Of a stretch of DNA of 64,000 bases, positions 9,282 through 49,914 are shown piece after piece; positions within the stretch are counted from its first letter, which is position 1, and each line of letters begins with the position of its first letter. Origin of the DNA: Candidatus Peribacteria bacterium (GTDB lineage Bacteria > Patescibacteriota > Gracilibacteria > Peribacterales > Peribacteraceae); contig CALRAD010000004.1 of NCBI GenBank assembly GCA_943350395.1, positions 1 to 64,000 on the forward strand. The letters are read 5' to 3'. Position numbers and translations under genes: made by a program. The notes beneath the pieces are model-generated. The model saw only the letters and a program-made list of their open reading frames with translations, had not been told where the DNA came from and ran no database searches.

Positions 9282-10519
9282 GGGCAGGGAGTCCAGCCGT
9301 ATGGAGAAGGATCGGTATGGAAACAGGCTTTTGTTCCGCCATATTCAAAACAGCGCGTGGCAGTAGCCCATCCTCGACTGAAGTAGGACAAGCAACTTTG
9401 CCCTGGAGCAATCCCCGGTGCACAGGCTCCATCTGGACCGCAATTGCTGGTTTGCCAAAGATCCAAATTTGCACACGATGGCGTGGAATCTGAGGCGCAA
9501 ATTCTAGAGCAGACGTAGGGATACGTTCCGCAATCGCCGCCAGATGGCATGGATCCAGAGGACCCTGCAGAACCGGAAGACCCCGTTGACCCCGTAGAAC
9601 CGGAAGATCCTGTCGAACCCGATGAGCCGCTGCTTGCCGGTGGAGGTGGAAGCTGGCACGTTCCCCCCGTACATGTCAGCGCCGGAGAAGTAATGCAGCA
9701 ATCAGCAGTCGTCGTGCACGCTTCTCCTTCGTTTTTACAGAGTGTCGCTGCCCCGCACACCGTCGGATTTGTTATCTGCACTTCGCTGCAACCCTTGGCA
9801 ATATAACTGGTGCCCGCGCCTGCGACACACGTCGTAAGGTCTACGTTGTCTGTGCAACTGGCACTTGTGCAGCACGCACCATTTGTCGAAATCGTATGTG
9901 TATGTCCGTAGATCGACTGGATACCGGCGAGGTCATCTGCACTCGGCTGCTCATTCATGAGTCCGCCTCTTGTTGCACCGGTCGAATCGTCCGTGTAGTC
10001 CATGCAGCTTCCGAAATTATTATTGGTGAATGCGGTGTCCTGATGATCGAGCCCGAGTGAGTGTCCGATTTCCTGACAAGCCGTGTATTTCTTCGTTGAT
10101 ACATCGCTGATGCTGAGTGTGTTGTCATTGAGAACGACTCTAGCCATGTAGACGTGACTCGTAAGACTGTCTTGGAAAACCTGCGCCATCCCGAGCCATC
10201 CCGTGTTTCCGTAGTCCGCATTGCACACTTCGATCCTTCCGGGGACAGCATTGCACGCAACAGGATCGCCACCACTCGAGACTTTCGTGAGCGTGAGGAC
10301 AGTTGGATCACTCGACCAATCACTGATGGCGGTGTCGAGGTAGGTATCCCAGTCGGGTGTCACATTGGCTCCGACATCGAGCGAGAGCGGTTGCGTGGCA
10401 ATGGGCCAATGGAGACCTGCCCACGTGTGACCAGCCTCCGTCCTTTCGACGGTAGAAGCGAGAAGCACACACAAGAGCAGCAGGGAGAAGAGCCTGTGAC
10501 GAACGAAGAATCTCAACAT
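9278..10519 (-). CDS. Secreted matrixin-like metalloprotease homologue with Cys-rich C-terminal region
   Basis: 413 residues with a signal peptide (hydrophobic 8-22, cleavage near TEAG). The catalytic-type domain is at about 30-210. The zinc motif reads CQEIGHSLGLDHQD: metzincins usually show HExxHxxGxxH, and here the first His is Gln while the other two remain. A downstream FGSCMDYTDD resembles the Met-turn region. Residues 215-290 hold about a dozen Cys. A low-complexity Ser/Gly/Thr linker (about 295-325) leads to a second Cys-rich block of about 80 residues. It overlaps the preceding dockerin/DUF4215-type gene by 7 nt and is the last gene of the ftsQ-led operon. It may be an active or a degenerate extracellular protease. 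Confidence 0.85.
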   Translation of the reverse strand: MLRFFVRHRLFSLLLLCVLLASTVERTEAGHTWAGLHWPIATQPLSLDVGANVTPDWDTYLDTAISDWSSDPTVLTLTKVSSGGDPVACNAVPGRIEVCNADYGNTGWLGMAQVFQDSLTSHVYMARVVLNDNTLSISDVSTKKYTACQEIGHSLGLDHQDTAFTNNNFGSCMDYTDDSTGATRGGLMNEQPSADDLAGIQSIYGHTHTISTNGACCTSASCTDNVDLTTCVAGAGTSYIAKGCSEVQITNPTVCGAATLCKNEGEACTTTADCCITSPALTCTGGTCQLPPPPASSGSSGSTGSSGSTGSTGSSGSAGSSGSMPSGGDCGTYPYVCSRICASDSTPSCANLDLWQTSNCGPDGACAPGIAPGQSCLSYFSRGWATATRCFEYGGTKACFHTDPSPYGWTPCP

Positions 10520-11091
10520 GGATGAGCAGGGTCGGGGTAATGAACATCCGTGATCATCTTCTTGCCGTTCCCGAGATCACGCTCATAAACACAGTGACCG
10601 ATATCAGGATCGTCATCTCCATGATCATCCTCCGCCACGAGCATTCCCCAGTTTTCCCGTTGGTTCAAATCCCCGTAGTCCATCGGTTCGATGCGGCACG
10701 CAGAGCTGCAACCGTCTCCCGGTGCTGTGTTCCCGTCATCGCACTTCTCCCCCGCTTGGATCACGCCGTTGCCGCAGACTGCCGTGAGAAAGCCTCGAAT
10801 GCTTTGGAGAAAGAGCTTCAGATCGAATCGGTCCGTTCCCGAACTTTGGTTCAAATCATAGGCAAGATTATTGCTGAACATTCCCTGAAACACAGCCGAG
10901 ATTCCTCTGCGCATTTCGCCGACAGACAGCGTTCCGTTTTGGTTCCGATCGGTAAGGCTTAAGACTCGGTCATCGAGAACGGAGCCACGAAGGGAACCTC
11001 CGGAGAAGAGAACAACCATCGTGACGATAATGATCCCGACAGCGGCAAACAGAATCCAATGCCGACGCGAGTTCTTGTTCTTGGTGGTCAT
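10513..11091 (-). CDS. Membrane-anchored protein with dockerin-like EF hands and one Cys-rich DUF4215-type repeat
   Basis: 192 residues. Residues about 12-30 form an N-terminal membrane anchor. The next 75 residues carry a paired EF-hand-like module (LTDRNQNGTLSVGEMRRG and YDLNQSSGTDRFDLKLFLQS). One Cys-rich repeat follows (CGNGVIQAGEKCDDGN ending GDGCSSACRIE), then an acidic tail. The GSLRGSVLDDRVLSLTD sequence after the anchor is nearly the same in the large surface proteins at 38728, 42353 and 44741, so this is a short member of that family. It sits between the LysM/M23 gene (26 nt) and the metalloprotease gene (7-nt overlap). Calcium binding is inferred from the Asp/Asn spacing. Confidence 0.82.
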   Translation of the reverse strand: MTTKNKNSRRHWILFAAVGIIIVTMVVLFSGGSLRGSVLDDRVLSLTDRNQNGTLSVGEMRRGISAVFQGMFSNNLAYDLNQSSGTDRFDLKLFLQSIRGFLTAVCGNGVIQAGEKCDDGNTAPGDGCSSACRIEPMDYGDLNQRENWGMLVAEDDHGDDDPDIGHCVYERDLGNGKKMITDVHYPDPAHPC

Positions 11092-12149: not shown

Positions 12150-13037
12150 TTACTGCTCCAAGGCGACATTCTCGGAGAGAGCCTTGCGCAGTGCTGTGAG
12201 GAGATAGAGGCTGTCAGTATAGCGGTCATTCGAGCCGATGAGGACCAGTAAGTATGGACGATGCTCCTCTTCAAAGAGGACGATCAGACATTCGCCTGCC
12301 AGGTCCGTGGTTCCCGTTTTCACGCCGAACACATGCGGGTTCTCATGCAGCAATTCATTGGTATTCCTGAGGTCGAACGATTGTCCGGTCGTTGCTTCGA
12401 TTGTGCCTGATTTGGTGCTCACAATTTTCCGGAACACGGGGTGCTTCAAGGCCGCGATCGTGAGCCATGAAAGGTCTCGTACGCTGGAGTATTGCTCTGT
12501 GCTATCGAGCCCCGCAGGATTGGTAAAGTGTGTGTTTTTGAGTCCCAGACTGCTTGCACGTTTGTTCATACGTTCTACGAACCGAGAGACGCTTCCGGCA
12601 TCGTCGATGGCGAGCGCATACGCCGCATCGTTTGCGGAGGGAATGAGCAGAGCCTTGAGGAGGTCGCCGATCCTGAAAAATTCTCCGGCCTTCAAACCGA
12701 CAGCGCTTCCCCTGATGCCATCCGCTAATGTTGGAACCGGTACGATTTCATTGAGGTTATGATTTTCCAAGATCAGCAATGCCGTCATGATTTTTGTGAG
12801 GCTGGCGACTTTCCGTCGTTGGTTCTCATTCCGAGACAGCAGAGTTTCTCCGCTTTGCAAGTCCAGGAGAAGCATGCCCGACGCAGAGAGGCGCTCGGGG
12901 AGAAGAAGTGGTTTTCGTTTCTCCGCGGGTGCGGCAATCGACAGCACCTCGATGCCGGGCAGCGGCCGCAGGACGGGGCCCGCTGCAGGAGGAGAGATTG
13001 CGCCGAGCAGCAGCAGTGATGCGAGAGAGGAGAACAT
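12150..13037 (-). CDS. dacA: D-alanyl-D-alanine carboxypeptidase (peptidase S11)
   Basis: 295 residues with an N-terminal hydrophobic export signal (about 4-18). It trims the terminal D-Ala from peptidoglycan pentapeptides outside the membrane. All three penicillin-binding motifs are intact: SLTK at 79-82 (nucleophile Ser79), SAN at 134-136, and KTGT at 240-243. It lacks the C-terminal amphipathic PBP5-type domain and ends soon after the KTG block, so it is a minimal form. It starts 9 nt after the ftsQ stop and is followed 12 nt later by the LysM/M23 gene. Confidence 0.94.
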   Translation of the reverse strand: MFSSLASLLLLGAISPPAAGPVLRPLPGIEVLSIAAPAEKRKPLLLPERLSASGMLLLDLQSGETLLSRNENQRRKVASLTKIMTALLILENHNLNEIVPVPTLADGIRGSAVGLKAGEFFRIGDLLKALLIPSANDAAYALAIDDAGSVSRFVERMNKRASSLGLKNTHFTNPAGLDSTEQYSSVRDLSWLTIAALKHPVFRKIVSTKSGTIEATTGQSFDLRNTNELLHENPHVFGVKTGTTDLAGECLIVLFEEEHRPYLLVLIGSNDRYTDSLYLLTALRKALSENVALEQ

Positions 13038-13046
13038 GATGTGGTC

Positions 13047-13982
13047 TTATTGGAAAATGATTTTATCTGCGATTCGTAGATCAATATAGATCTTTGCCTG
13101 ATCGAGTGAGAGTGTTTTCAGAAATTGCCTGAAACGCTGGAATTGCTCTTGGAGGGGGCTTTTCAGATCGAACCAAATCGACAGCTTGTTGGTGCGGATG
13201 TGAAATTCCTGCGCACGGACGTAGACGACGATGTCGAGAGTGGAGAGTCCGAAATCCGTGCGAAGGATGTCACGTGCCGTGAAGATGCGCTCGATGAAAT
13301 CGGGAAGAATGACGCGCGTGCGGTTTTGAGGGCGAAACCCCCAGTCCGTGAATCGGAGAATCGGTACCGGAGTCTTTCCGGAGAGCTTGATTGGAGAACT
13401 GACGAAATAGCCGCTTCTCGTGATGTACGCGTAGGACCCCGAGCCGATCATCGCTCCACTCTGCGTGTCTTGCGAGGAGTCATCGCTGTCGACGAGCACC
13501 CGTGCGACGACCGGTTCGAGCGAGAGAAAGACTGACAGGGTGGATGGATATTGCTTTTCAATTTCGATGCGATCGATGTCGGGGTACTGCGTTTCGAGGA
13601 GAGAGGCGATCTGACTTTTGGTGATGAGAATGAGGCGCTGACGGAAGAGTGGTGCGAGGATCTGTTGTACATCGGACGGATCGATGCGCGGGTCTTGTCT
13701 CTGGATCGTGATTTGTCGGACATCGAAGAAAGGAGAGAACAGGAGTGCCAGAAGAATACTCACGGCGATCGTGCCGATGCCGATTGCGATCCATGTGCGG
13801 AACTCGGATGCGACGAGAGAGGAAAGTCTCGAACACTTTTTTGCGAAGCGTACCCAGCGCTCATGCCGCCGCCGCGCTCTCCGATCGACGGTGTGGTAGC
13901 GCGCGCGAGCAATCGAACGAGAGAACAAACTTGTTTCCCTGTTCAGGAAGCGTGGCAATCTGCGGGGGGACCGTAGTGGCAT
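13047..13982 (-). CDS. ftsQ: FtsQ/DivIB-like cell division protein
   Basis: 311 residues with divisome FtsQ architecture. A basic cytoplasmic N terminus rich in Arg (about 1-60) is followed by one membrane span (about 64-83, WIAIGIGTIAVSILLALLF). Next is a POTRA-like domain (FFDVRQITIQ, then a helix-turn region DPSDVQQILAPLF and IASLLETQYPDIDRIEIEKQYPSTL). A beta-rich C-terminal domain ends with STLDIVVYVRAQEFHIRTN and a DLR motif. FtsQ links FtsA/FtsK to FtsL/B/W/I at the septum. The start is set at 13982 because the long upstream extension is antisense to the divergent glycosyltransferase and TATACT ends 7 nt before this ATG. It heads a five-gene wall operon. Confidence 0.88.
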   Translation of the reverse strand: MPLRSPRRLPRFLNRETSLFSRSIARARYHTVDRRARRRHERWVRFAKKCSRLSSLVASEFRTWIAIGIGTIAVSILLALLFSPFFDVRQITIQRQDPRIDPSDVQQILAPLFRQRLILITKSQIASLLETQYPDIDRIEIEKQYPSTLSVFLSLEPVVARVLVDSDDSSQDTQSGAMIGSGSYAYITRSGYFVSSPIKLSGKTPVPILRFTDWGFRPQNRTRVILPDFIERIFTARDILRTDFGLSTLDIVVYVRAQEFHIRTNKLSIWFDLKSPLQEQFQRFRQFLKTLSLDQAKIYIDLRIADKIIFQ

Positions 13983-35093: not shown

Positions 35094-35603
35094 ATGCGTA
35101 CTTTTTCCGCAGTCGGTCTGAGTGTTGCGTTCGGTGCATCACTCCTGATGCCCCTCACGACGTTTGCGTATCTTACGCCGGATCAGGTCTTCGGCGGATC
35201 CAGTACCATCACTGCTCCTCCTGCGCCTCCGACACAGCGCGAAGGTGATGCGGTCGTGCAGCAACAGCAACAGCAGGCGGCAGAGAGAAGGGAAGCAGTG
35301 CAGCACCAGCTCGTGCCGAACTATGCCGTTCCCGTCGACACCTACGTTCCTCCGCAGACTGCGAGCAGCAAGGGATTGTTTGATCAGAATGCACAATATG
35401 AACTTCGTCAGGATCGCATCGCAGACGAGAAGGCATCCACGCCAACGATTATCATCGGCGACAGCGTGCTCCATAGCGGTGCACCACGCGTTTCAGACAC
35501 GGGACCCGCAACGGTGCTCGGCGGAATCGCCATGATGCTTGCCGCAGGATCCACATTTGCATTTGCTCAGCTCCGCACAAAAAGACTTTCTGCTCTTGTC
35601 TAA
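35094..35603 (+). CDS. Exported protein with C-terminal sorting-like signal
   Basis: 169 residues. Signal peptide 1-24 (VAFGASLLMPLTTFAY). The middle is Pro/Gln-rich and probably disordered (VVQQQQQQAAERREAVQH). The C terminus is SDTGPATVLGGIAMMLAAGS, then a short hydrophobic run and RTKR, i.e. a TGP motif, hydrophobic span and basic tail, laid out like a sortase (LPxTG) signal but without the Leu-Pro. It could be wall-linked or simply a C-terminally anchored membrane protein. TACAAT lies about 29 nt upstream of the ATG. Confidence 0.7.
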   Translation: MRTFSAVGLSVAFGASLLMPLTTFAYLTPDQVFGGSSTITAPPAPPTQREGDAVVQQQQQQAAERREAVQHQLVPNYAVPVDTYVPPQTASSKGLFDQNAQYELRQDRIADEKASTPTIIIGDSVLHSGAPRVSDTGPATVLGGIAMMLAAGSTFAFAQLRTKRLSALV

Positions 35604-35618
35604 GTCCCCATTTTTTCT

Positions 35619-37340
35619 ATGAATACATTTTCCACATTGCAGAAAGGATGGCAGCGGGCCGTCTACGCAGCGGTTGCGATCAGCGTTGTCCTGCTCTCAT
35701 TCGTTCTCCTGCATTCTCCCAAGCAGTCAGATACTCTCATGCTTGGAGATATTCCCATTCCGTTCGGGATGAACAACTCGTCACTGAAGGGTTCCATTAC
35801 GCTCTTCGGACAAAGAAATGGCATCAGCGTGTTCGAAGTGGAATTCAATCACGGAGAAGCATCTGAACATTTGACTCCGAATAAAATTTATCTCGTGCGT
35901 GTTCCGAATGCCACGGGAGTGTCCGATGTGCCGCTCGATCTGGCGCTCACGCTGACCGGCACCGGAGGCCATCTCGTCGATTACTACGGTTACCGTTACA
36001 CGGATGCCGCAGCGACGATGGAGCGCAGAGACATTCAGGCATTCTTGTTTAAGGATCGTTTCCCAGGTCAGTTCTTCGCGTCAAAAACGGCCAGGGACGG
36101 TGATATCGCACACGGTCGTTCGATCGCCGCATTCGAGGCTGCAAACAGAGTCACATTCCTTCCGACCGACGGTAGTACCGGAAGCGTGCGTCTCGATCCG
36201 GCAGGAGCCCTCTACGTCTTCATCGTGAACTCTCCGGCAGGTGCCGATCTTGCGATCCGGAATCTCGTCGGTTGTGGCAATCATATTCTGGAATCTGCCG
36301 AACAGTGTGATGACGGAAATTCCATCGATACTGACAATTGCAAAAACAACTGCACGATCGGTTTCCCGATTCCTTTTGACGGCGGTCCGAACGGGAACGG
36401 TGCCAGTCTGACGCTCACGCAGTTCTCGGGAAGCACCGGTTCCGCTCTTGCGGGTGCAGTGTCTATTCCTCTCGTGCGCTTTACGGCGATCGCAAGCGAC
36501 CTCACCACGATCAAGCATCTTGCATTCGCTGCAGAAGAAGGCTCATTCACAACTCTTGAGCGCTATCGGCTCTGGCAGGATACGAATAATGACGGTGTCA
36601 CGGATCTTCCGATCACGCTTGCCGCCGTGCCAGTGGGTAATAATATTACGTTCGATTCTCCGAGCAACTGGAGCGGCGCATTGGCGCTCTCTCATTCCGG
36701 AACGATCTTTGAACTGAAGGCGGATGTGCCGGCAGGTTTGCAGGGTGTATCTTCCATTCGCGTTGGATTTGCTCATACACTCCAAGACTTTGTCGGAGGG
36801 CAGAGAGTAGCAGGCACATTCCCTCTCTTCGGCATCAAGAAGAATGGCGTGTGCACGACCGAGATCTGCCAGATCTTCGTGACGACCGCAGTATCGCCTC
36901 TCTGGAATCTCTCGGGTGCAACCGCATCGTCAGAGTCTTCAGCCGCAAGCACAACTTCCGCTGGATCTTCAACGTCTTCAGCTGCAAGCACAACTTCCGG
37001 CGGATCTTCAGCATCGTCGACGGCAAGTACAACTTCTGCTGGATCCTCAACGTCTTCAACTGCAAGCGCAACCTCCTCAGCTTCATCTCCCACGTCACTC
37101 TGCGGTAACAGCGTGATCAATGCGGGCGAGGAATGTGACGATGGCAATTCGGTGAACACCGATGACTGCGACAATTCCTGTCAGCTGAGCACTCCAACTC
37201 CCGGATTCAATGGTGGTGCACCTTCTCTCTGTGGCAACGGTGTACCGAATTCCGGCGAGGAATGCGACGATGGCAATTCGGTGAACACCGATGACTGCGA
37301 CAACACGTGTCATCTTACTACCCCAACTCCCGCGCTATAA
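35619..37340 (+). CDS. Membrane-anchored surface protein with Cys-rich repeats and Ser/Thr minisatellite
   Basis: 573 residues. N-terminal anchor (14-32). Residues about 45-210 carry the unnamed domain seen also at 33936 and 37369 ([35 protein letters not shown]). One Cys-rich repeat ([16 protein letters not shown]) follows. Residues about 255-410 form an Ig-like module with [16 protein letters not shown], like one in the S-layer protein. A low-complexity Ser/Ala/Thr tract of 13-residue units at about 443-487 is encoded by tandem 39-bp repeats. Two almost identical Cys-rich repeats ([16 protein letters not shown]) close the protein. It starts 15 nt after the previous stop. Probably a surface stalk or adhesin. 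Confidence 0.78.
36948..37080 (+). repeat. 39-bp tandem repeat coding for a Ser/Thr linker
   Basis: About three and a half units of a 39-bp sequence of the type GCAAGCACAACTTCC-GCTGGATCTTC-AACGTCTTCAGCT, with a few substitutions, encoding [13 protein letters not shown]-like units in frame. Confidence 0.8.
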
Positions 37341-37368
37341 TTTTCGATATTTTTTTCTCTCTCCCGTT

Positions 37369-38346
37369 ATGCAACACTCCACTTCCCTCCGCTTGGCAAT
37401 CTGTGGGTCTACGGCGCTCGTCGTCATAGCAGCAGCCAGCATTCATCAGTATCTCACGGGAATGAACGATATTCCTCTTCCCTTCGCTCAGAATGCAAGT
37501 TCTTCACTGACGGGAGATCTCACCAAAATTGGTCGTCGTGTTGCCGATGTATACAAAGTCACGTTTCCGACCGGAGTGAATACGGAGACGTTGACCGAGG
37601 ACAGGATTTATCTTGTCTATATTCCGGATGAAACGGGCATCGAAAACAAGCCGTTCAGCGACGTGCTGACGCTTGACGTTGATGGCAGTCACGATGTGGA
37701 TTTCTTCGGATACAAATACGTGACGGCAGATGCATCCATCGAGAAGCAGAACAAAAACGAACTGCTACTCGCCGATCGTTTCCCAGGTCAGTTCTTCGCT
37801 TCGCCCAAGGCGCGTGCAGGCGATGCGCAGTACGGAAATTTCCTCGCAAATTTCGAAGCCAATAACGACATTGTAATGGATCCGACGAATTCACCGACGG
37901 GAGCACTCTTTCGAAAAGGATCTCTCTATTTCTTGATTGTGAATGAAACAGGAAACGTTACGATCACAGTGCGTACGCCTGCGGCTGTTGCCTGCGGCAA
38001 TGGCATCAAAGAAGGCACCGAGGCCTGTGACGATGGAGACACGACCGGCGGCGACGGTTGCAGTGCGACGTGCACAGTCGAGTCGAACTTCAGCTGCAAC
38101 AGGGCTACTCCAAATGTGTGTATCACCTATAACCAGTTCGTCAAAAACCTTGCCGATACCGCTCCGACAAACGGCACCGTGTCCCAAAACGAGGCGCTTC
38201 TTGTGACACTCAGGATCGGCGATGCAATCAGTAATCAGCAGTACGATGCAGGACTCGACATCAACGGTGATGGCGTTTTCAACAGCATCGATTCGAGTGC
38301 CATCTTCACGGAGCTCGATATTCTTGCTCCTACTCCCCAAGAGTAA
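37369..38346 (+). CDS. Membrane-anchored surface protein: shared domain + Cys-rich repeat + EF-hand pair
   Basis: 325 residues. Start 37369 follows TATAAT (37336-37341), which overlaps the previous gene's stop. N-terminal anchor (7-26). Residues about 40-200 are the unnamed domain ([47 protein letters not shown]), about 40% like the same region of the protein at 35619. Next is one Cys-rich repeat (CGNGIKEGTEACDDGD ending GDGCSATC). A dockerin-like pair closes the protein (APTNGTVSQNEALLVTLRIG and LDINGDGVFNSIDSSAI). The following gene encodes a stand-alone copy of this last module. Confidence 0.78.
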   Translation: MQHSTSLRLAICGSTALVVIAAASIHQYLTGMNDIPLPFAQNASSSLTGDLTKIGRRVADVYKVTFPTGVNTETLTEDRIYLVYIPDETGIENKPFSDVLTLDVDGSHDVDFFGYKYVTADASIEKQNKNELLLADRFPGQFFASPKARAGDAQYGNFLANFEANNDIVMDPTNSPTGALFRKGSLYFLIVNETGNVTITVRTPAAVACGNGIKEGTEACDDGDTTGGDGCSATCTVESNFSCNRATPNVCITYNQFVKNLADTAPTNGTVSQNEALLVTLRIGDAISNQQYDAGLDINGDGVFNSIDSSAIFTELDILAPTPQE

Positions 38347-38349
38347 TCT

Positions 38350-38721
38350 ATGGAACACACTCAGAACATTCATGCCAGAGTTCTTGTGATCGCATTTGCG
38401 CTCACGATGTCTGCTGCCCTTCTCTTCTTTTTCCTGCGCGTGCCGGCAGTATCGCAGAGGCAAGAGAGCCTCTCTGTGTCTGATACTGAGGTGCAAGATC
38501 ATGCAGCAGCGCCGGATAGTTCCGGTGTTCAGGCACTCGCCGACATAAATCAGGACGGCAACGTCAGTGAGAACGAAGCGCTTCTCCTGACGCTCGGCGT
38601 CGCGGAGGCTTTCGGTCAGCCGTACGAATCCATCCGGAAGTACGACATGAATGCAGATGGAACAGTGGATAGCGCGGACACGACAATCATCTTCTCTGCA
38701 CTTGATGTTCTTGCTCCCTAA
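38350..38721 (+). CDS. Small membrane-anchored dockerin-like protein
   Basis: 123 residues: N-terminal anchor (about 10-30, LVIAFALTMSAALLFFFL), spacer, then a paired EF-hand-like module, DINQDGNVSENEALLLTLGV and YDMNADGTVDSADTTIIFSA, ending LDVLAP. The module resembles the C terminus of the preceding protein, so the two arose by duplication. It is 3 nt after the previous stop and 6 nt before the next start, clearly co-transcribed. Dockerin-type pairs bind cohesin domains in cellulosomes; no cohesin is recognisable nearby, so the partner is unknown. Confidence 0.75.
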   Translation: MEHTQNIHARVLVIAFALTMSAALLFFFLRVPAVSQRQESLSVSDTEVQDHAAAPDSSGVQALADINQDGNVSENEALLLTLGVAEAFGQPYESIRKYDMNADGTVDSADTTIIFSALDVLAP

Positions 38722-38727
38722 TCGCAC

Positions 38728-41700
38728 ATGTTGCCGAAGCCCAGTATCCATCGATACCGATTGCTGGGGGTCTCTGCGGTGCTTGCTGTTTTTATCATTG
38801 CGGTGCCTACGGCATCCCGTTTTCTAAAGGGTTCCCTCATCGATGATCGAGTCGTTGCAGTCTCCGACACCAATCATGACGGCGTGTTTTCGATCAGAGA
38901 AATGCGCAGAGCACTCACGAATATGATTCGTGCCTTTGCAACGAACGATCTTGCGTACGATCTCGACCGCAGCGGCACGGTCGATCGCGTGGATTTAGGA
39001 TTGCTGATCGCGAGCATTCGACTCGCACTTGCCCAGAATGCTCCGCATGCGTACATCGTCAATGCCGGAAGCGAGACGCTGCAGATCTATGACACCACGA
39101 ATCCGCTTGTGCCGGTGAGTGTCGGCACTGTCAGAACGGGATCGGAGCCGACTGGTGTAGCGGTCCGAGGTTTCTACGCGTACGTCGTGAATCACCGAAG
39201 CAATACTCTTGAGATCTTCAATATTCTCGATCCGCGTACTCCCGTGAGCATTGGGACGGTTCCGACGGGCTCCTATCCGACGTCCGTTGCGATTCGCGGT
39301 CTTTTTGCGTACGTGACGAATATGGGAGACAGGACGCTCAAGACATACAGTCTTTCAAATCTCCGTACGCCGACGCTTCTCAGCACGGTGGCAACGGTTG
39401 CCCCTCCCGCACGCATTTCGATTCGGGGTCGCTATGCATACGTTCTGGAAGACACTCCCGGAACGACCGGGGTTCTTCAGATTTTCGATCTCGCAAATCC
39501 ACAGTCCCCCGTTGCTTTGGGTTCCGCACTGACTTTTCATTCTCCCCACGTTTCGATTTCGGGTGACTATGCTTACGTCGCAGCAGGTGCGTATTTCGAC
39601 GTCTACGATCTTAGGAATCCGCAGGCGCCCGTCGACGTGAAACAAGTGGCGACCTTGATGTCCGATCTGCAGGGGCTCGCCGTGCATGATCAGTACGCAT
39701 ACATCGTCGGCAGTGACGGACCCAGACATACGCTTCAGGTTTTTAGTCTCACCGATCCCGCTGCTCCCGTCAGCGTTTCTTCCGTCTCGATGATCGCATC
39801 ATCCTCCGATATTGCGATTGAAGGATCGACGCTCTATGTGCTTCACGGTGACGCAAAAACGCTTGAAAGTTTTGATCTGACGGATCCTGCTGCTCCCGTG
39901 AGCAGGGGAACCGTCGCGACGGGAATTTCTCCTTTTGCTTTGCTGACGCAGTCTGTCTTCATGCCTTCCCCCGAGTGCGGGGACGGCGCGAAGGAAGGCT
40001 CGGAGCAATGTGATGATGGAAATTTTATCGACACCGACGACTGTACCAACAGCTGCAAAAATCCCGTGTGCGGTGATCATGCAGTCTGGTCCGGTCATGA
40101 AGAGTGTGATGACCAAAGTAGCGCCGATGGCGACGGCTGCAGCGCCTTGTGTACGGTCGAGGAGACCTACGCGTGCACAGGCAGCCCCAGTGTGTGTTTG
40201 CCTCCTTCGACGCTTGCAAACGGGCTCGATGCATACTGGAAACTCGATGAGACCGGTCGTGACTATGATCCGTCGCGTTTTTCTTTCGTGGATCGTCATC
40301 CACTCTACGTCAATAACGGACCGACACTTTTCTCGGCACCGGGTAAGATTGGCAATGCGTTGTTGCTCTCGCCCAATCCTCAGATTTTTCAGGGGTGGTC
40401 CACACTCACAAATATCGGCACGATCAATCGTCTTGCCAATGCCAATCGCACGTTCACGATCGGCGCATGGATCAACTTGGGTCACTTGGGAGGCTCGCGC
40501 TTATTGCATGCAAAAACCTACGACGGAACGGTAAGTAGCGGTCCGACATGGACGCTCCGACACCGAGGAGGAGTCATCAATCGTTTTTCTTTTACGATTC
40601 AGACCGCGGACGGTGTCGATCACGAAGTGAGAGCAGATTCTTTCGGTGCTCCAGAGATTTCGACGTGGTACTTTGTAACGGGGACATTCGATCCCGTCAG
40701 TAAAGAGCTTTCTCTTCGCATCAATGCAGGCAAACCTGATAGCGTCACGGTTTCCGGAACGGCACGTGGAGGGAACCTGAACAGTTACTACCCTCAGGGT
40801 TCCGATGATATTACGGTTGGTCCCGGCAAAGGCCACAAGATCGACGAGTTTGGCATTTGGTCGCGTGTACTGACTCCACAGGAGATTTCTGCGCTCTATC
40901 GCAGTGGCGAAGGTCAGACTCCGCGTTTTTACCCCGTCCTCTGCGGCAACGCATCACCGGATGCGGGTGAGCAGTGTGACGATGGGAATCAGGAGGAGAC
41001 CGATGATTGCACGACCAGTTGTAAGTTTCCTCTCTGCGGCGACGGATATTTGAATCAACTGTCCGAGGTGTGTGATGATGGAAATCTTTCTGGTGATGAC
41101 GCCTGCACAAACAGTTGTGAGTATGTGCCATGCGGCAATGGACAGGTCGATGCGGGCGAACAGTGCGATGACGGCAATCGAAACGACAGCGATTTTTGTA
41201 CCAATGCCTGCGTTACGATCACGCCTGTGTGTAGAGATGGCATCAAACAGGGTGATGAACAATGCGACGACGGCAATCAGATTGAGACGGATGCCTGCAC
41301 CAACAATTGTCGCGTACCTGTCTGCGGTGACGCGATTCTGAAGACAGGCGAACAGTGTGACGACGGCAATGATATCGAGACGGATGCGTGTACGAGCTTA
41401 TGCAAAGCTCCCTTCTGCGGGGATGGCTTCTTGCAGGGCTCGGAAGAGTGTGATGACGGTAATGGAACAGACACTGATCTCTGCAAATCCTGCAGAAATC
41501 CGGTGTGCGGCGACGGTTTTAAGCAGGGTGGCGAAGGTTGTGACGATGGCAATACAGTCAATGGTGATGTGTGCAGTTCAACATGCATGGTCGAACAGAG
41601 CGGCCTCACGGCGTTCGCAGGAAACATGTACGTCCAGCTGACCGGAGTGACAGGGCCGAACGGGATGTACGGTCTCACTGTGCAAAGAGCTCTGTCCGCA

Positions 41701-42261: not shown

Positions 42262-42283
42262 GCGTCCTGAGAGGGTCTTTTCG

Positions 42284-42352
42284 TTGTTTTTTCCGCTTAT
42301 TTCTGCTATAATAAGAAGATTATTTCTCGTGCAAAACACACAAGAATATTCC
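42284..42352 (+). promoter_or_regulatory. Promoter and leader of the 758-residue surface protein
   Basis: ATTTCTGCTATAAT places -10 TATAAT at 42307-42312. A leader with AAGATTATTTCTCGTG and ACACACAAGAA precedes the ATG. Almost the same block (promoter, leader and first codons) is present at 44682-44740. Confidence 0.75.
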
Positions 42353-44629
42353 ATGACGGTTCCCGCACTCCTTCGCTCGCGGCACGTGCTAATCTCAATC
42401 GCTTTCGCTGCGGTACTGGCGCTGATGTTCACGTTCGGTTCAACGACAAAATTTTTGCGTGGCTCACTCCTCGACGATCGTGTGCTGACGCTCTCCGATA
42501 CCAATGACGACGGCGTGTTTTCCCTGCGTGAAATGCGCAGAGCGCTCACGAACATGCTCCGTGCGTTTGCTACGAACGATCTCGCGTACGATCTCAATAT
42601 CAGCGGCACGGTCGAGCGTGAAGATTTGAGGCTCCTTGTCAGGAGCATTCGTGCCTTCCTCAGCGCCGTATGTCCCAATGCAACGATTGAGCCGGGCGAA
42701 CAGTGTGATGACGGCAATGCGACGGACAACGATTCCTGCACGAATCTCTGCAAAATTTCTGTTGCAACGAATGCAGACAGTACCTGCAAGAAACAAGATG
42801 AACAGTTTAGGTCCGAACACGGAGGTTGCTTGAACGTCGCAACAAATATCACATGGAGCAGCCTCCAAACAAACATGCCAAACCAACAGAGTGCGCTGAA
42901 TCTCTGTGACAACTTGATCTCAAATGGCTTCGACGACTGGTCACTGCCGACAGCGATCCAAATTACGGATGTCGCGCTTCGCTACGCACCTGAGTACTTC
43001 GATTTTAAGACGAATCAGCTGTTCTGGTCATCGAGTCTGAGCAGTGGCAGCGGCGTGATTGCGAATCTTTCCAATACATCGCAATTTATTGGCAACCGCA
43101 ATGTTTCCTACCCCGTCGTCTGTATCCGAAGCGGCATCTGCGGCAACGGAGTGAGGGAAGGCACCGAGCAGTGTGACGACGGCAATGAAGACAACACCGA
43201 TGACTGCATCGACTCTTGTAAGTCATCTGTCTGCGGCGATGGTTTTGTAGCGACGGATGTCGAGCAGTGTGATGATAAAAATTCAGTGAATACCGATGCA
43301 TGCACAACGCTCTGCAAGATCCCTGTCTGCGGTGACGGTTTCAAGCAGGCGGAAGAACAGTGCGATGACGGGGATTCTGACGAAACGAATACGTGTACTA
43401 CTCTCTGCAAGAACCCAGTGTGCGGCGACGGCTTCAAACAGGGCTCGGAACAGTGTGACAGCGGCCTTCAAAATGGGGCGCAGTGTACGACCGAGTCCGC
43501 AAATATTGCGTGCCAGTACTGTTCTTCCGCTTGCATCCTCACGATGTACAGTCCGCCTCCGGTGTGTGGCAACGGCATCGTGGAATACGGAGAGAGCTGC
43601 GACGATCACAATAATGTTTCACAGGACGACTGTTCTGCGACCTGCAATGCAGAGTCGCACTACGCATGTGTGGATTACGCTTGCACTCAGGTTGAAGGAT
43701 TCGGACCGAATACATGCGGCGAAGTGGCCGATAGTTGTCTTCCGTCGCCGAATGACGGCATCCAGGCGACGATGACGTTCTCAAAAAATCCGATCATCAC
43801 GTACGAGCCTGCCGTCACGACGATCGTCATTCATCCGGACAAAATTCGTACGGGAGTGGCTGCTGATATCATCTTGAATGTTTTGAACAGGGATATCGAC
43901 GATTCATTCCGCGATCCGCGGTGCACGAGAGTGAACGATACGGGGACTTACCCACTCTTCCATCTATCGTGCGCACTCGGAACGATCAATCCGGCGACCG
44001 ACATCACGATCGTCATTCCGTTCACGACGTACCGATGTCAAGGAGTCACGTCCGCACCTTCTGGGATCTTCGATCTTTGGGGGTCGCTTCTTCTAAGGGA
44101 TTCTGCCGCGCGTCCGGCCGACGCTCCTCCTCTTACGCCCCTCAAGGTCAAGTTCCCGTACAAATGCAAACCGATGCCGGCAACGATGGGTCGCAGAGAT
44201 GCATCGTGCACGGCAGGATTTTACGGGTTCTCATCGAACGATCTGTACATCGAAGGTACGAGCACCGAGAATCCCGTGACGCACGAAACGTATATTTTCG
44301 GACAACGAACGAATACCATCGCATGGTTTCGCTACACTCCGGGAAACAATGTGATCACATCCGAGTCGATGATACCGCTGCCTGGTCTTGGTTTCGTGAG
44401 CGACGCCCGTTTCGATAATTTGCATTCCGTCGTGTCGTTCATGTTTAGGTCCTACGATATTCTACGGGGGCAGCTAGGTAATCCGGCACCGCTGTGTCTA
44501 GATCCTGCCACAAGCCAAATCAATGGCGGGGCTTGTTTGAGCGCTTTTACCCCTCATGCCGCACTACCTGTTTCCGTCACGGCGATTCGTGATCCAAACC
44601 CTTGGAAACGGTGTTTTTATAGGCCGTAA
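42353..44629 (+). CDS. Surface protein: dockerin-like module, DUF1566-type domain, six Cys-rich repeats
   Basis: 758 residues. The N-terminal 120 residues (MTVPALLRSRHVLISIAFAA anchor, then FLRGSLLDDRVLTLSD and the EF-hand-like pair) are nearly identical to the protein at 44741. After the first Cys-rich repeat comes a DUF1566-like domain (NGFDDWSLPTAIQ; LFWSSSLSSGSG; YPVVCIRSG), a fold related to phage-tail and fimbrial tip proteins. Five more Cys-rich repeats follow, one of them irregular (residues about 375-400 with extra Cys). A C-terminal region of about 290 residues of unknown fold contains Cys pairs (DPRCTRVND; YKCKPMP). Probably surface-exposed and disulfide-bonded. Confidence 0.82.
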   Translation: MTVPALLRSRHVLISIAFAAVLALMFTFGSTTKFLRGSLLDDRVLTLSDTNDDGVFSLREMRRALTNMLRAFATNDLAYDLNISGTVEREDLRLLVRSIRAFLSAVCPNATIEPGEQCDDGNATDNDSCTNLCKISVATNADSTCKKQDEQFRSEHGGCLNVATNITWSSLQTNMPNQQSALNLCDNLISNGFDDWSLPTAIQITDVALRYAPEYFDFKTNQLFWSSSLSSGSGVIANLSNTSQFIGNRNVSYPVVCIRSGICGNGVREGTEQCDDGNEDNTDDCIDSCKSSVCGDGFVATDVEQCDDKNSVNTDACTTLCKIPVCGDGFKQAEEQCDDGDSDETNTCTTLCKNPVCGDGFKQGSEQCDSGLQNGAQCTTESANIACQYCSSACILTMYSPPPVCGNGIVEYGESCDDHNNVSQDDCSATCNAESHYACVDYACTQVEGFGPNTCGEVADSCLPSPNDGIQATMTFSKNPIITYEPAVTTIVIHPDKIRTGVAADIILNVLNRDIDDSFRDPRCTRVNDTGTYPLFHLSCALGTINPATDITIVIPFTTYRCQGVTSAPSGIFDLWGSLLLRDSAARPADAPPLTPLKVKFPYKCKPMPATMGRRDASCTAGFYGFSSNDLYIEGTSTENPVTHETYIFGQRTNTIAWFRYTPGNNVITSESMIPLPGLGFVSDARFDNLHSVVSFMFRSYDILRGQLGNPAPLCLDPATSQINGGACLSAFTPHAALPVSVTAIRDPNPWKRCFYRP

Positions 44630-44681
44630 ACCCATCGGTCATCGGTTTCTTGAGTGATCCTGAAGAGTGATAGATTTTTCG

Positions 44682-44740
44682 GCTTATTTCTGCTATAATA
44701 AAAAGATTATTTCTCGTGAAAAAACACACAAGAAAATTCC
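44682..44740 (+). promoter_or_regulatory. Promoter and leader of the 1234-residue surface protein
   Basis: Near-copy of the 42284-42352 block: ATTTCTGCTATAAT (-10 at 44694-44699), AAGATTATTTCTCGTG leader, ATG at 44741. Confidence 0.75.
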
Positions 44741-47700
44741 ATGACGGTCCCCGCAATTCTTCGCTCGCGGCACGCTCTGATCTCAATCGCTTTCGCTGCG
44801 GTACTGGCGCTGATGTTCACGTTCGGTTTCTCGACGAGGTTCCTGCGCGGGTCACTTCTCGACGATCAGGTGTTGACGCTTGCGGATGGCAATCTCGATG
44901 GCGTGCTTTCCATCGGAGAAATGCGCAGAGCAGTGACGGACATGATTGGTGCAACAGAGACAAACGATCTTGCGTACGACCTGAGCGGCAACGGCACGAC
45001 TGATCGTACGGATCTCACGCTCCTTTTGCAGAGCATTCGTGCGCATCTCAGCGCCGTGTGCGGAAACGGCATCGTCGAGCCGGGCGAGCAATGCGACGAC
45101 GGAAATCAGAGCAATACCGACGCCTGTTTGAATACGTGCAAACTGCCGGTCTGTGGTAATCAGGTTCTCGAGGGCACCGAGCAGTGCGATAACGGACCCC
45201 AAAACAGCAATACCAGTTCCTGTACGCTTGGTTGCCGCCTTGCAGCGTGTGTCGACGGATTTAAGCAGGGCGCAGAAGAGTGTGACGATGGTGATCAGCT
45301 CAACACAAATTCATGCACAAATATTTGCAAAAATGCAGCGTGCGTCGATGGATTCAAACAGGGCACCGAAGAGTGTGACGACGGAAATCAGGTGAATACG
45401 GATTCCTGTACCAGTCTCTGCAAACTTGCGAAGTGCGTAGATGGATTCAAGCAGGGTACCGAAGAGTGTGACGACGGAGACCAGGACAATACGAATTTTT
45501 GCACGAATAGTTGTAAGAATGCGAGGTGTGGCGACGGATTTAAGCAGGGTGCCGAAGCATGCGATGACGGAAATACGGTGGATACGGACGATTGCAGGAA
45601 TACGTGCATTCTCCCGCGCTGCGGCGACAGTATCGTGCAGGGAACGGAGCAGTGTGACGACGGCAATACCGTTCAAACGGATCTGTGCATGAATACCTGC
45701 ATTCTTCCGATCTCCGATACAAGTATCGAACAATTCTGCGCAAACAATTCGGTCTACGGTGATCTCACCGGCATTTTCGAATCGGCATTCACGTATCCTT
45801 CGACGATCACGCATGCAGGCGAAGCGTACGCGGGTGTCGGTGTCATCACGACGAGGACAACGGGGACGATCTATCGTTCTGTTCGTCAGGGCAACACCAA
45901 AAGATGGCTCAAAGAAGCACAGTTCCCGTCGATCAATTCTCCAAACTATGCGAATATCAGGTTCTTCTCAACCGCGAATAACTTGGTTGCAACGTTGGAA
46001 GCAAGCAACACCGGATCGATGATCTTGAAACGCGAACAGAACGGAAAGTGGGCGAATATCAGTTTCCCGGTACCGACGGCTCTTGGCATCGGTTCTCTGA
46101 TCGAACATGACGGAAAGATCTATTTCAATTCAAGAAATAACGGCATTGTCTATCGGCATGATGGCGGAAGAATCTGGACACCGATTGCGACTGTCATCAC
46201 CGGCTTGAAAGGTATTGCATCACTGAATAACACGCTCTACGCGATTTCGATCAGCAATCTCTATCGCTTCGACGGAGTGTCATGGGTGAACGTGCCGATT
46301 CAAGGCGTTCCTTTTGCAAACAGCACATCATTTGTTTCCTTCAGAGATTCTCTCTTCGTCAATGGCTTCGACGGAACACTGAACAAATCGATGGTCTACA
46401 AATTCAATCCCACGTCACTCTTTACTCCTGCGGAGCGTATGCAGGTGGGCAATCCGCCAACGGGTATGTCTCAACTCAGTCTGCAGGTTGCAGGCAGTCA
46501 TCTTATTGCAGGGGCGTACGCTTCTACGACAACATTCGGTCTCTTCCGGTACGTTTCCGATTCGAATACTTGGGTGAGTGCCGGCATCAACTATTCAAAT
46601 GGTCAGAGTATCAACAGCGCTCTCGTTACTTTGCAGTCCGCTTCTCCTCCGGGCTCCTGGTATGTCAACTGTGCGAAAACTTCCATCTGTGGAGACAGTG
46701 TCAGGGAGGGTAGCGAACAGTGCGACGATGGGAATGCGATTGAGACTGATTCCTGTTTGAGTACTTGCACCTTTCGCTGTGGAGATGGGGTGAGGCAGGG
46801 GGCAGAACAATGTGATGACGGAAACACGGTCGAGACCGACGAGTGTTCAAACCTTTGCAGGCTTCCGGCATGTGGGAACGGGGTCGTGGAAGGATCAGAG
46901 CAATGCGACGATCAGAACACCACACTTGGAGATGGCTGCAATGCAACATGTGTCGTGGAAACGAATTACACATGTTCCGGATCACCGAGTCGTTGTGAGC
47001 GGGTTGCCGCTTCGTGCGTGAATAGCCAAGTTGTCTGCAATAACGGCGTTTCTCCACTCTGCAATTCCGCTTCTCCGAACGCAACCTGCGTTGGTTATCG
47101 ATTCAATGCTTCGGATCCATGGCAGTATGCTCCCTATTGTTGTACGACTGATTCCGGTGATTGCCGAGGAGGTACGCCGAGCTGCAATGGGGTTATTCCT
47201 GCTCCACCTCCCACTCCGGTCTGCGGCGATTCCATCGTACAGATCGCTTCACCGTACAATGAGCAGTGCGATGACGGGAACAGAACCTCAAACGATGGCT
47301 GCTCGGCGGCGTGCAGGAATGAAATCTGCGGAGACGGCGTGAAACAACCGAGTGAGAGCTGTGATGATGGCAATACGATCAACACGGACAGTTGCACCAA
47401 CGCGTGCGCTCTCCCTGTCTGCGGCGATGGATTCACGCAGACCGGCGAACAGTGTGACGATGGGAATGCTCTTGTCAGTGACGGATGCACACCGATATGC
47501 ACAACGTCCCCCGTTGTTCCTTCGCTCTGTGGAGTCGGCAGCTTCAAGGCTGTGACATTACCTTCGCCGACCGCAACGCAACGATATCAGTCGATTTCAT
47601 TCTTCTATCCGACGACGAATCTTCTCTTCCTCGCTGACGATGCGCAGGTTTCCTACTTCAATAACGTCTCATGGAGATCTGCCGGAGTAAAAGAAAATAT

Positions 47701-48445
47701 CATCGATCCTAGCGGTTATAGTACCAACATACGGGAGATTACGACGCAGACGGCATTGTATTTGGATGAAGAAACGCAGACGTTGTATTTGGGAACCTAT
47801 AGCGGCGATACGTGGAAGCAGCAGGTGCAGGGAAGCAACATGGAAGGGGTGTGGCACTTCCTCGGAAGATTACCGGCAAGCATCGCTTCTCTGAGCAAGA
47901 AGAATGGGAAGATACACGCATTCAGTGGCAGAGGAGTCTATGAATTGTCGACGTCGTGGGATTTCACTCGCGGGTATTGGACAGGAAAAGCCGCTTTTCC
48001 GGTCGCTTCCCCGGGGGCGAAAGCATTCTTCGCCGATCACGATACTCTGCTTTTTGGAGGAGCGATCTACGCATGGAACGGCACGACTTGGGATTACTAC
48101 AATACGTACCCAAGCGTGGCAGAACCCTTTGGAGCCACACTGAAACACGGTGTCGTTTTCATCAATATTCTTGGCATCACCACTGCGACTCCGGCGAATG
48201 TCGGTGGCAATCCTATCACGTTCGTTCCGTATGGAGGACTCAATAAGGGTATGTATCGTGCGCACAATGTGACCGGAGAGGGAGTGTTCTCTTCGCCTCT
48301 TTGGCAAAAAATCCAAGGTATTGAGCCTTGCTCTGGTGGAACAAGCACACTTGCCTGTATCTCCAGTGATGACTTCACCGATTGGAAGGGTGAGTACTGG
48401 AAATTCAATGCCGATGCGGGTCTTGGCTGTATGAAAATGCCGTAA
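44741..48445 (+). CDS. Giant surface protein: dockerin-like module, two propeller-like domains, 13 Cys-rich repeats
   Basis: 1234 residues and the last gene of the cluster. It shares anchor and dockerin-like module with the previous protein (LADGNLDGVLSIGEMRRAVT; YDLSGNGTTDRTDLTLLLQS). Seven Cys-rich repeats follow, three of them CVDGFKQGTEECDDGN-type copies that are nearly identical at DNA level. Then a beta-rich domain of about 300 residues with blade-like repeats (GIVYRHDGGRIWTPIA; LYRFDGVSWVNVP; FVNGFDGTLNKSMVYKFN), six more Cys-rich repeats broken by a Cys-containing insert, and a second blade-like domain (VYELSTSWDFTRGYW; IYAWNGTTWDYYNTY). The C terminus has the last Cys near LGCMKMP. 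Function unknown; adhesion or scaffold is the best guess. Confidence 0.83.
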   Translation: MTVPAILRSRHALISIAFAAVLALMFTFGFSTRFLRGSLLDDQVLTLADGNLDGVLSIGEMRRAVTDMIGATETNDLAYDLSGNGTTDRTDLTLLLQSIRAHLSAVCGNGIVEPGEQCDDGNQSNTDACLNTCKLPVCGNQVLEGTEQCDNGPQNSNTSSCTLGCRLAACVDGFKQGAEECDDGDQLNTNSCTNICKNAACVDGFKQGTEECDDGNQVNTDSCTSLCKLAKCVDGFKQGTEECDDGDQDNTNFCTNSCKNARCGDGFKQGAEACDDGNTVDTDDCRNTCILPRCGDSIVQGTEQCDDGNTVQTDLCMNTCILPISDTSIEQFCANNSVYGDLTGIFESAFTYPSTITHAGEAYAGVGVITTRTTGTIYRSVRQGNTKRWLKEAQFPSINSPNYANIRFFSTANNLVATLEASNTGSMILKREQNGKWANISFPVPTALGIGSLIEHDGKIYFNSRNNGIVYRHDGGRIWTPIATVITGLKGIASLNNTLYAISISNLYRFDGVSWVNVPIQGVPFANSTSFVSFRDSLFVNGFDGTLNKSMVYKFNPTSLFTPAERMQVGNPPTGMSQLSLQVAGSHLIAGAYASTTTFGLFRYVSDSNTWVSAGINYSNGQSINSALVTLQSASPPGSWYVNCAKTSICGDSVREGSEQCDDGNAIETDSCLSTCTFRCGDGVRQGAEQCDDGNTVETDECSNLCRLPACGNGVVEGSEQCDDQNTTLGDGCNATCVVETNYTCSGSPSRCERVAASCVNSQVVCNNGVSPLCNSASPNATCVGYRFNASDPWQYAPYCCTTDSGDCRGGTPSCNGVIPAPPPTPVCGDSIVQIASPYNEQCDDGNRTSNDGCSAACRNEICGDGVKQPSESCDDGNTINTDSCTNACALPVCGDGFTQTGEQCDDGNALVSDGCTPICTTSPVVPSLCGVGSFKAVTLPSPTATQRYQSISFFYPTTNLLFLADDAQVSYFNNVSWRSAGVKENIIDPSGYSTNIREITTQTALYLDEETQTLYLGTYSGDTWKQQVQGSNMEGVWHFLGRLPASIASLSKKNGKIHAFSGRGVYELSTSWDFTRGYWTGKAAFPVASPGAKAFFADHDTLLFGGAIYAWNGTTWDYYNTYPSVAEPFGATLKHGVVFINILGITTATPANVGGNPITFVPYGGLNKGMYRAHNVTGEGVFSSPLWQKIQGIEPCSGGTSTLACISSDDFTDWKGEYWKFNADAGLGCMKMP

Positions 48446-48459
48446 TTATTTCTCAGTTG

Positions 48460-49914
48460 CTACAGAGCCGGCTTCTTCGTGTGCCACTCTGTTGCTTGTT
48501 CGTACGCATACGCAGCACTCAGTAGTCCTGCTTCTCCCCACTGCGGTCCCATCATCTGGAGCCCTATGGGAAGCCCTTCTTTGCTTATGCCACAAGGCAC
48601 GGAAAGTGCGGGGATCCCGGCCATCACTGCGCCGTCCATGAAGACATCTTCCAGATACATTGCGACAGGATCATTGACGTGAGCACCGACTTTGAATGCG
48701 GGAGACGGTGCAACCGGTGAGATGATCAGATCAAAATTTTTGAAAGCATTCGTAAAATCTTCACAAATCAAAGTTCTCACTTTCTGCGCTTTCAGATAGT
48801 ACGCATCGTAGTAACCGGCCGAGAGCGCGTACGTCCCGATCATGATTCTGCGTTTCACTTCCGTACCGAATCCTTCACTTCTGGCACGCTGATAGTAATC
48901 GAGAAGATCTTTCGGTTTGCTCACGCCATGCCCGTATCGAATGCCGTCGTAGCGTGCCATATTGGAACTCACTTCGCAGGGGCAAAGCACGTAGTAGGTT
49001 GCAAGCGCGTACTTCGTATGCGGCAGACTCATCTCGGTGACAGTTGCTCCAAGTGACGCAAGAATTTTTGCAGCCTCACGGATTGCGTGTTCGGTGTCGC
49101 TATTGAGCCCTTCGATGAAGTACTCTTTCGGCAGTCCCACTCGTACCCCTTTCAGGTCTTTTTTTAGGGCTCCCGAGTATTTTGGTACAGGACGATCGGA
49201 CGTCGTTCCATCCATTGGGTCGTGTCCTGCAATTGCCTCAAGAACGATTGCAAGATCTTCGACTGTCTTGCATATCGGTCCGATGGTATCGAGTGAGCTT
49301 GCCATGCTCATCACTCCATACCTGCTTGTTCTTCCGTATGTAGGACGAATGCCTGCAATGCCGCAGAAACTTGCAGGCTGGCGGATCGATCCTCCTGTAT
49401 CGGTACCGAGTGCGAATAATGCTTCATCCGATGCAATGCCCGCCGCCGATCCTCCGGACGATCCACCTGCAACACGGTTCGTATCCCACGGGTTTCTCGT
49501 GACGCCGTAGCAGGATGTTTCTGTGGATCCTCCCATCGTAAATTCGTCGGTATTTGTCTTCCCGATGCTGATGGCACCTGCTGCGCTGAGTCGCTTCGTA
49601 GTCGTAGAGTCGTAGGGTGGGATGTAATCTTTACTTCGCAGCATGTTGGAGCAACCCGTCGTTTTTACCCCCGCTTCGCAGTACACATCCTTTGCAAGGT
49701 AGGGGATACCGGTCAGCGCGGAATTCCATTCCGCGGAATCATCAACTTTTTTGGCTTCCTCAAGGGCTCGATCGAAATTGCGATGCACGACGGCATTCAA
49801 TTTCTTATCGATCGATTCAATGCGATCGATGCATGACTGCGTGAGTTCGACAGAAGTAATTTCCCGCTTCTTCAGTTTTTCATGCGCCTGCGAAATCGTC
49901 AGAGAGGAGAGCAT
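48460..49914 (-). CDS. gatA: Glutamyl-tRNA(Gln)/Asp-tRNA(Asn) amidotransferase subunit A
   Basis: 484 residues, normal length. An amidase-signature enzyme that releases ammonia from glutamine for transamidation of Glu-tRNA-Gln or Asp-tRNA-Asn by GatB. The catalytic Ser-cisSer-Lys triad is visible in PYLAKDVYCEAG (Lys), GGSSGGSAAGIAS and TDTGGSIRQPASFCG. The start at 49914 is set 1 nt after the gatC stop; an upstream in-frame ATG lies inside gatC. gatB is not in this window, so the complex is encoded at two loci. Confidence 0.97.
   Translation of the reverse strand: MLSSLTISQAHEKLKKREITSVELTQSCIDRIESIDKKLNAVVHRNFDRALEEAKKVDDSAEWNSALTGIPYLAKDVYCEAGVKTTGCSNMLRSKDYIPPYDSTTTKRLSAAGAISIGKTNTDEFTMGGSTETSCYGVTRNPWDTNRVAGGSSGGSAAGIASDEALFALGTDTGGSIRQPASFCGIAGIRPTYGRTSRYGVMSMASSLDTIGPICKTVEDLAIVLEAIAGHDPMDGTTSDRPVPKYSGALKKDLKGVRVGLPKEYFIEGLNSDTEHAIREAAKILASLGATVTEMSLPHTKYALATYYVLCPCEVSSNMARYDGIRYGHGVSKPKDLLDYYQRARSEGFGTEVKRRIMIGTYALSAGYYDAYYLKAQKVRTLICEDFTNAFKNFDLIISPVAPSPAFKVGAHVNDPVAMYLEDVFMDGAVMAGIPALSVPCGISKEGLPIGLQMMGPQWGEAGLLSAAYAYEQATEWHTKKPAL

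Follow-up and report, generated by a model that had tools for sequence, protein, structure and literature searches.

A Probable EF-Hand-Like Module Beside the Membrane Anchor of Cys-Rich Stalk Proteins, and a Side-by-Side Anchored Dockerin–Cohesin Gene Pair, in Candidatus Peribacteria

Four anchored proteins encoded in a Candidatus Peribacteria genome carry, directly after the N-terminal hydrophobic anchor, a near-identical block, some 69 residues long, that is probably an EF-hand-like pair and a remote relative of dockerins. A second result, which is the more interesting of the two, is family-wide: an anchored dockerin gene and a cohesin gene, lying side by side, form what the sequences indicate is a near-universal single-copy trait of one Peribacteria family. 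Surface assembly and variation in tiny, probably host-dependent bacteria are largely unknown. The block-bearing proteins suggest a modular design (constant anchor, predicted constant calcium collar, Cys-rich stalk, variable tip) combined with tandem copying, and the dockerin–cohesin pair offers a concrete, testable protein–protein link at the surface in a lineage of the Candidate Phyla Radiation.

Results

The window analyzed, a stretch of 64,000 nt, is part of a 1.25-Mb genome (27 contigs, 98% complete). Profile searches for the block covered 242 genomes of the class and 74 of the family; the genus was represented by three genomes: the source genome, a sister species that also has the block (G062, Candidatus Peribacteria bacterium nzgw386), and G188.

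All four of the anchored proteins to which the first-pass annotation had assigned a near-identical block are present, and in each the anchor is followed by the block within a few residues. P0001 (38728..42261, + strand) has an N-terminal anchor, an EF-hand-like pair, an LVIVD-type propeller, 11 DUF4215 repeats and a Laminin_G_3 domain; a hydropathy scan of its sequence places the hydrophobic membrane anchor at approximately 38758..38814 (+), and the membrane-proximal pair occupies 38830..39036 (+), with loop 1 from 38866 and loop 2 from 38959. P0002 (42353..44629, +) combines an anchor, the pair (42461..42667, +; loops from 42497 and 42590), DUF4215 repeats and a weak Lcl_C-like region; P0003 (44741..48445, +) has an anchor, the pair (44849..45055, +; loop 1 from 44885) and 12 DUF4215 repeats. 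The shorter P0004, on the opposite strand (10513..11091, −), consists of an anchor, the pair (10780..10986, −; loop 1 from 10950) and one DUF4215 repeat. The tips differ: by Pfam, that of P0001 is an LVIVD-type propeller plus laminin-G, and those of the rest have weak assignments or none. A genome profile search recovered the block far above chance (E 1e-34 to 1e-37).

Outside the window, the source genome has three further copies: two on contig C12, in tandem genes where the block immediately follows the anchor, and one on contig C7, where it lies near the C terminus. Across the surveyed class and family genomes, strong copies are confined to the source species (seven) and its sister species (four), and the profile search found none in G188. 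G254, a genome from another genus of the same family, has two copies of a weaker, though clear, version in the same order of anchor, loop pair and DUF4215-type repeat as in the source species; one of these two proteins also has a part that, judged by eye, resembles an FG-GAP-type propeller. The block adjoins the membrane anchor in 9 of 11 copies and a DUF4215 repeat, likewise, in 9 of 11; in the C7 protein and its sister-species counterpart it is distant from the anchor yet abuts a DUF4215 repeat, suggesting a role tied to the stalk and not to the membrane alone. Codon comparison gave dN/dS values of 0.05–0.34, with synonymous sites near saturation; the block is under purifying selection.

The tandem copies share the anchor and upstream DNA. 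A TATAAT-like element (CTTATTTCTGCTATAATAAGAAGATTATTTCT) occurs in the upstream DNA co-duplicated with anchor and block (window positions 42265-42353 and 44650-44741, and L086 upstream of a 544-residue protein). There is also a juxtamembrane motif, [LF][RKQ]G[STAN], a few residues past the N-terminal anchor (window positions 38830, 42461, 44849 and 10986; L012, L013 and L086), which is found in many surface proteins of the lineage, with or without a calcium-loop pair.

Each block contains two 12-residue loops (in P0001, DTNHDGVFSIRE and DLDRSGTVDRVD). Their first residues are 31 apart, not about 40 as the first-pass annotation had estimated; its broader claim, that paired calcium loops lie beside the anchor, is supported by the sequence. 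Ligand positions conserved in the 11 copies are D1, G6 and E12 in loop 1 and D1 and D12 in loop 2, no copy departing from Glu12 in loop 1, and the EF-hand loop pattern (D1, D/N3, D/N5, G6, E12) is present in loop 1 of most of them. Two species keep these positions, and G254 does so less strictly. Loop 2 of P0004 (DLNQSSGTDRFD) is irregular in being without the usual Gly at position 6, and in some copies loop position 8 is not hydrophobic.

The dockerin label originally attached to the membrane-proximal block is not supported by comparison with known families. In type I dockerins, Asp occupies position 12 of both loops, and the dockerin fold consists of loop–helix pairs without full incoming helices. 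The blocks of P0001–P0004 have no match to Pfam Dockerin_1 even at E ≤ 1 and are not among its genome-wide matches; Glu12 of loop 1 is invariant; and a search of the PDB with the block profile leads to classical EF-hand pairs such as GCAP1, hippocalcin, NCS-1 and calcineurin B (whole-sequence E-values of 1.6e-8 and 2.5e-8); none of the best 60 matches is a dockerin. With profiles built from true local dockerins, the top matches are solved dockerins. Both Pfam cut-offs were missed, the best Pfam hint being EF-hand, where P0001 reaches 18 bits (cut-off 25).

The whole-sequence E-values are sums over several stretches and are discounted for that reason, a single stretch reaching only about 20 bits. 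Best single-stretch scores against the block are 19–20 bits for PDB EF-hand pairs, 18.0 for calmodulin, 21.4 for the neighboring protein P0006 and 18.4 for the best cohesin-linked dockerin, so that sequence does not separate EF-hand from dockerin cleanly. In profile–profile comparison (hhalign), the block aligns at full length with the P0005/P0006 type (93.6%, 21 bits) and with cohesin-linked dockerins through one loop only (62.6%). Its closest relatives within the genus are P0006 and the sister species' C-terminal dockerin; since P0006 is a dockerin, distant kinship is likely. AlphaFold models of the block (pLDDT 51, pTM 0.32, with a helix only after each loop) and of P0006 (pLDDT 44) are of low confidence because the sequences are insufficiently diverse, and a Foldseek fold search from these models returned nothing.

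Both of the related pairs that had been noted just upstream of P0001 exist, but they are of unequal quality. P0006 (38350..38721, +) is recognized as an anchored stand-alone dockerin: its dockerin stretch, about 38524-38706, scores 32.5 bits against Dockerin_1 (curated cut-off 22.9), and its loop 1 has Glu12, as in the block. P0005 (37369..38346, +) has an anchor, a domain common to P0007, one DUF4215 repeat and a C-terminal dockerin-like pair (about 38170-38304) that reaches only 15.1 bits against Dockerin_1 and has a damaged loop 1. The pair is intact in the sister-species counterpart; that of P0005 is classed as a decayed dockerin. Loop spacing in the local dockerins is 33–34, vs. 31 in the block. 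The adjacent P0007 (35619..37340, +) has the N-terminal domain common to P0005 and DUF4215 repeats, and no calcium-loop pair was found in it.

Two short sequence features recur in this neighborhood. The motif [IF]P[LI]PF[GAD] is found in P0007, P0005, a sister-species protein and a cupredoxin-like protein downstream of the cohesin gene (window 35619-38346; L013:2676-3815; L086:8812-10362). A further possible sorting signal, a GAP...TGPA stretch with a hydrophobic segment after it, lies at the C terminus of both the protein at window 35094-35603 and that at L013:2676-3815.

The source genome has exactly one cohesin, on contig C19 (PF00963, 33.1 bits against a cut-off of 24.1; lineage profile E 1.8e-47); a second was not found with the lineage-specific cohesin profile down to E 5. 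Among solved structures, the lineage profile finds the cohesins 1g1k and 2vn5 (E about 2e-4). The C19 protein combines cohesin and FN3 domains with a hydrophobic segment at its C terminus, and directly upstream of its gene is that of a 112-residue anchored dockerin (pair at L002:957-2589; homologous loci L028-L056). Cohesins are present in 65 of 74 family genomes, and in 43 of these 65 a Pfam dockerin match lies 141–945 bases upstream of the cohesin on the same strand. A lineage dockerin profile adds ten genomes, making the pair adjacent in at least 53 of the 65 cohesin-bearing and at least 53 of all 74 family genomes, and motif inspection of upstream frames suggests it in five more. Of the 44 family genomes in the class sample, 42 have the small anchored dockerin, about 110 residues long. 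At the C terminus of most of the cohesin proteins, a GETG-type motif is followed by a hydrophobic segment and then by an SRRQ-like tail, which recalls a sorting signal.

In another family of the class, two genomes (L090:137-2426 and L091:189-4851) encode a protein with a C-terminal dockerin-like pair, the gene immediately after it appearing cohesin-like by eye.

Discussion

The reading favored here, with some reserve, is that the block is an EF-hand-like calcium-loop pair forming a compact, calcium-stabilized collar at the foot of surface stalks, just beyond the membrane. The N-terminal transmembrane helix would hold the stalk protein in the membrane; the collar would take up extracellular calcium while the chain emerges, ordering the juxtamembrane segment, and would cap a disulfide-rich DUF4215 stalk carrying variable tip domains (propeller, laminin-G-like). 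This design would have been copied by tandem duplication of the 5' part of the gene, upstream DNA included. The sequence module itself, its conservation, position, neighbors and purifying selection are directly established; calcium binding, fold, extracellular topology and mechanical role we infer. A collar is consistent with the conserved ligand positions, the EF-hand pairs retrieved from the PDB, the EF-hand as top (if sub-cut-off) Pfam hint, the frequent adjacency to DUF4215, the order of parts kept in G254, the copies that abut DUF4215 far from any anchor, and the low dN/dS. It is less easily squared with the failure to reach either the EF-hand or the Dockerin cut-off in Pfam, with single-stretch scores that are alike for EF-hand pairs, P0006 and the best cohesin-linked dockerin, with the non-hydrophobic loop position 8 of some copies, or with the AlphaFold model, poor as it is, in which a helix only after each loop would fit a dockerin.

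In an alternative that we regard as unlikely, the block is a diverged docking module, an offshoot of dockerins that binds a non-cohesin partner and gathers proteins at the membrane. Its nearest genus relatives (P0006 and the sister species' C-terminal dockerin) suggest such an origin, as do the Glu12 that P0006 also has in loop 1 and a loop spacing nearer to that of local dockerins than to that of EF-hand pairs, whose alignments require a 5-residue gap; but no partner family was identified, Dockerin_1 does not match, and in the C7 protein and its sister-species counterpart the module sits close to the C-terminal end. The first-pass annotation had gone further, proposing that a membrane-proximal dockerin could recruit cohesin-bearing partners to the cell surface. 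Anchored dockerins and a cohesin do exist in this genome, the latter well supported by Pfam, by the lineage profile and by the match of that profile to solved cohesins, so that the lack of a cohesin, named in the first-pass annotation as grounds for refutation, does not apply; recruitment by the block is the part that finds no support. The C19 cohesin has its own anchored dockerin next to it, an arrangement found family-wide; cohesin number is constant in the three genomes of the genus (1, 1, 1 in the source genome, G062 and G188) while block number varies (7, 4, 0); and the dockerins of the pair have Asp12 in both loops, unlike the block. Docking of cohesin by the block is therefore unlikely, and with it the reading of the block as a working dockerin that recruits the C19 protein. 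We also consider improbable a composite scheme in which the anchored dockerin and the cohesin, with its sorting-signal-like C terminus, both encoded side by side, would form a clamp at membrane level within a calcium-dependent surface assembly; a diverged docking module, set in this genus at the base of Cys-rich stalk proteins, would then let many different tips attach to that one clamp. Finally, the block might be a decaying relic that no longer binds calcium and travels with duplications of the 5' region of the gene. The anchor and upstream DNA common to the tandem copies would fit, as would the irregular loop 2 of P0004 and loop 1 of P0005, but the purifying selection on the block, with synonymous sites near saturation, and the retention of ligand positions in two species and, less strictly, another genus make this highly improbable.

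With classical EF-hand pairs (PF00036, PF13405, PF13499) the block shares 12-residue loops with D1, D/N3, D/N5, usually G6, and E12 of loop 1, as well as a hydrophobic stretch ahead of loop 1 and a helix-prone stretch behind each loop; it differs in its loop spacing and the gap needed in the alignments, in a loop 2 ending in Asp, in scoring below Pfam cut-offs, and in its predicted extracellular setting, next to an anchor and to a Cys-rich stalk. With type I dockerins (PF00404) it has in common two calcium loops about 31–34 residues apart, each followed by a helix-prone stretch, and a neighbor (P0006) that is a dockerin; absence of a Pfam match, Glu12 in loop 1, N-terminal placement and the lack of a cohesin of its own set it apart.

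The paper on the first Peribacteria genomes (PMC4736985) describes large extracellular Cys-rich proteins that may serve in attachment, some of them with weak similarity to Myxococcus Cys-rich repeats, and the stalk repeats of P0001–P0004 are like these Candidatus Peribacter proteins and the Myxococcus repeat (TIGR02232, DUF4215). The words cohesin, EF-hand and calcium are absent from the main text of that paper, which gave no match in a literature search for dockerin with Peribacteria. The open-access literature yielded no description of the anchored dockerin–cohesin pair in Peribacteria: for Peribacteria and dockerin only a general treatment of huge proteins was found, and for Candidate Phyla Radiation or Patescibacteria and cohesin or dockerin, titles on other lineages or on rumen, biogas and seagrass communities. 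Elsewhere, non-cellulosomal cohesins and dockerins, of unknown role, are discussed in an ANME archaea genome paper (PMC9012536), and a giant protein of Omnitrophota has nine dockerins (PMC10066038). The C19 pair and P0006 are likewise without cellulosome context, no many-cohesin scaffoldin having been found; the Peribacteria pair differs from such systems in that both partners are predicted membrane proteins, encoded by side-by-side genes and near-universal in single copy in the family.

Many weak, single-loop matches to the dockerin profile also fall in giant open reading frames, 4108 to 4793 residues long (G000:C8, about 47000-49500; G062:C5, about 12800-13300 and 108000-128300).
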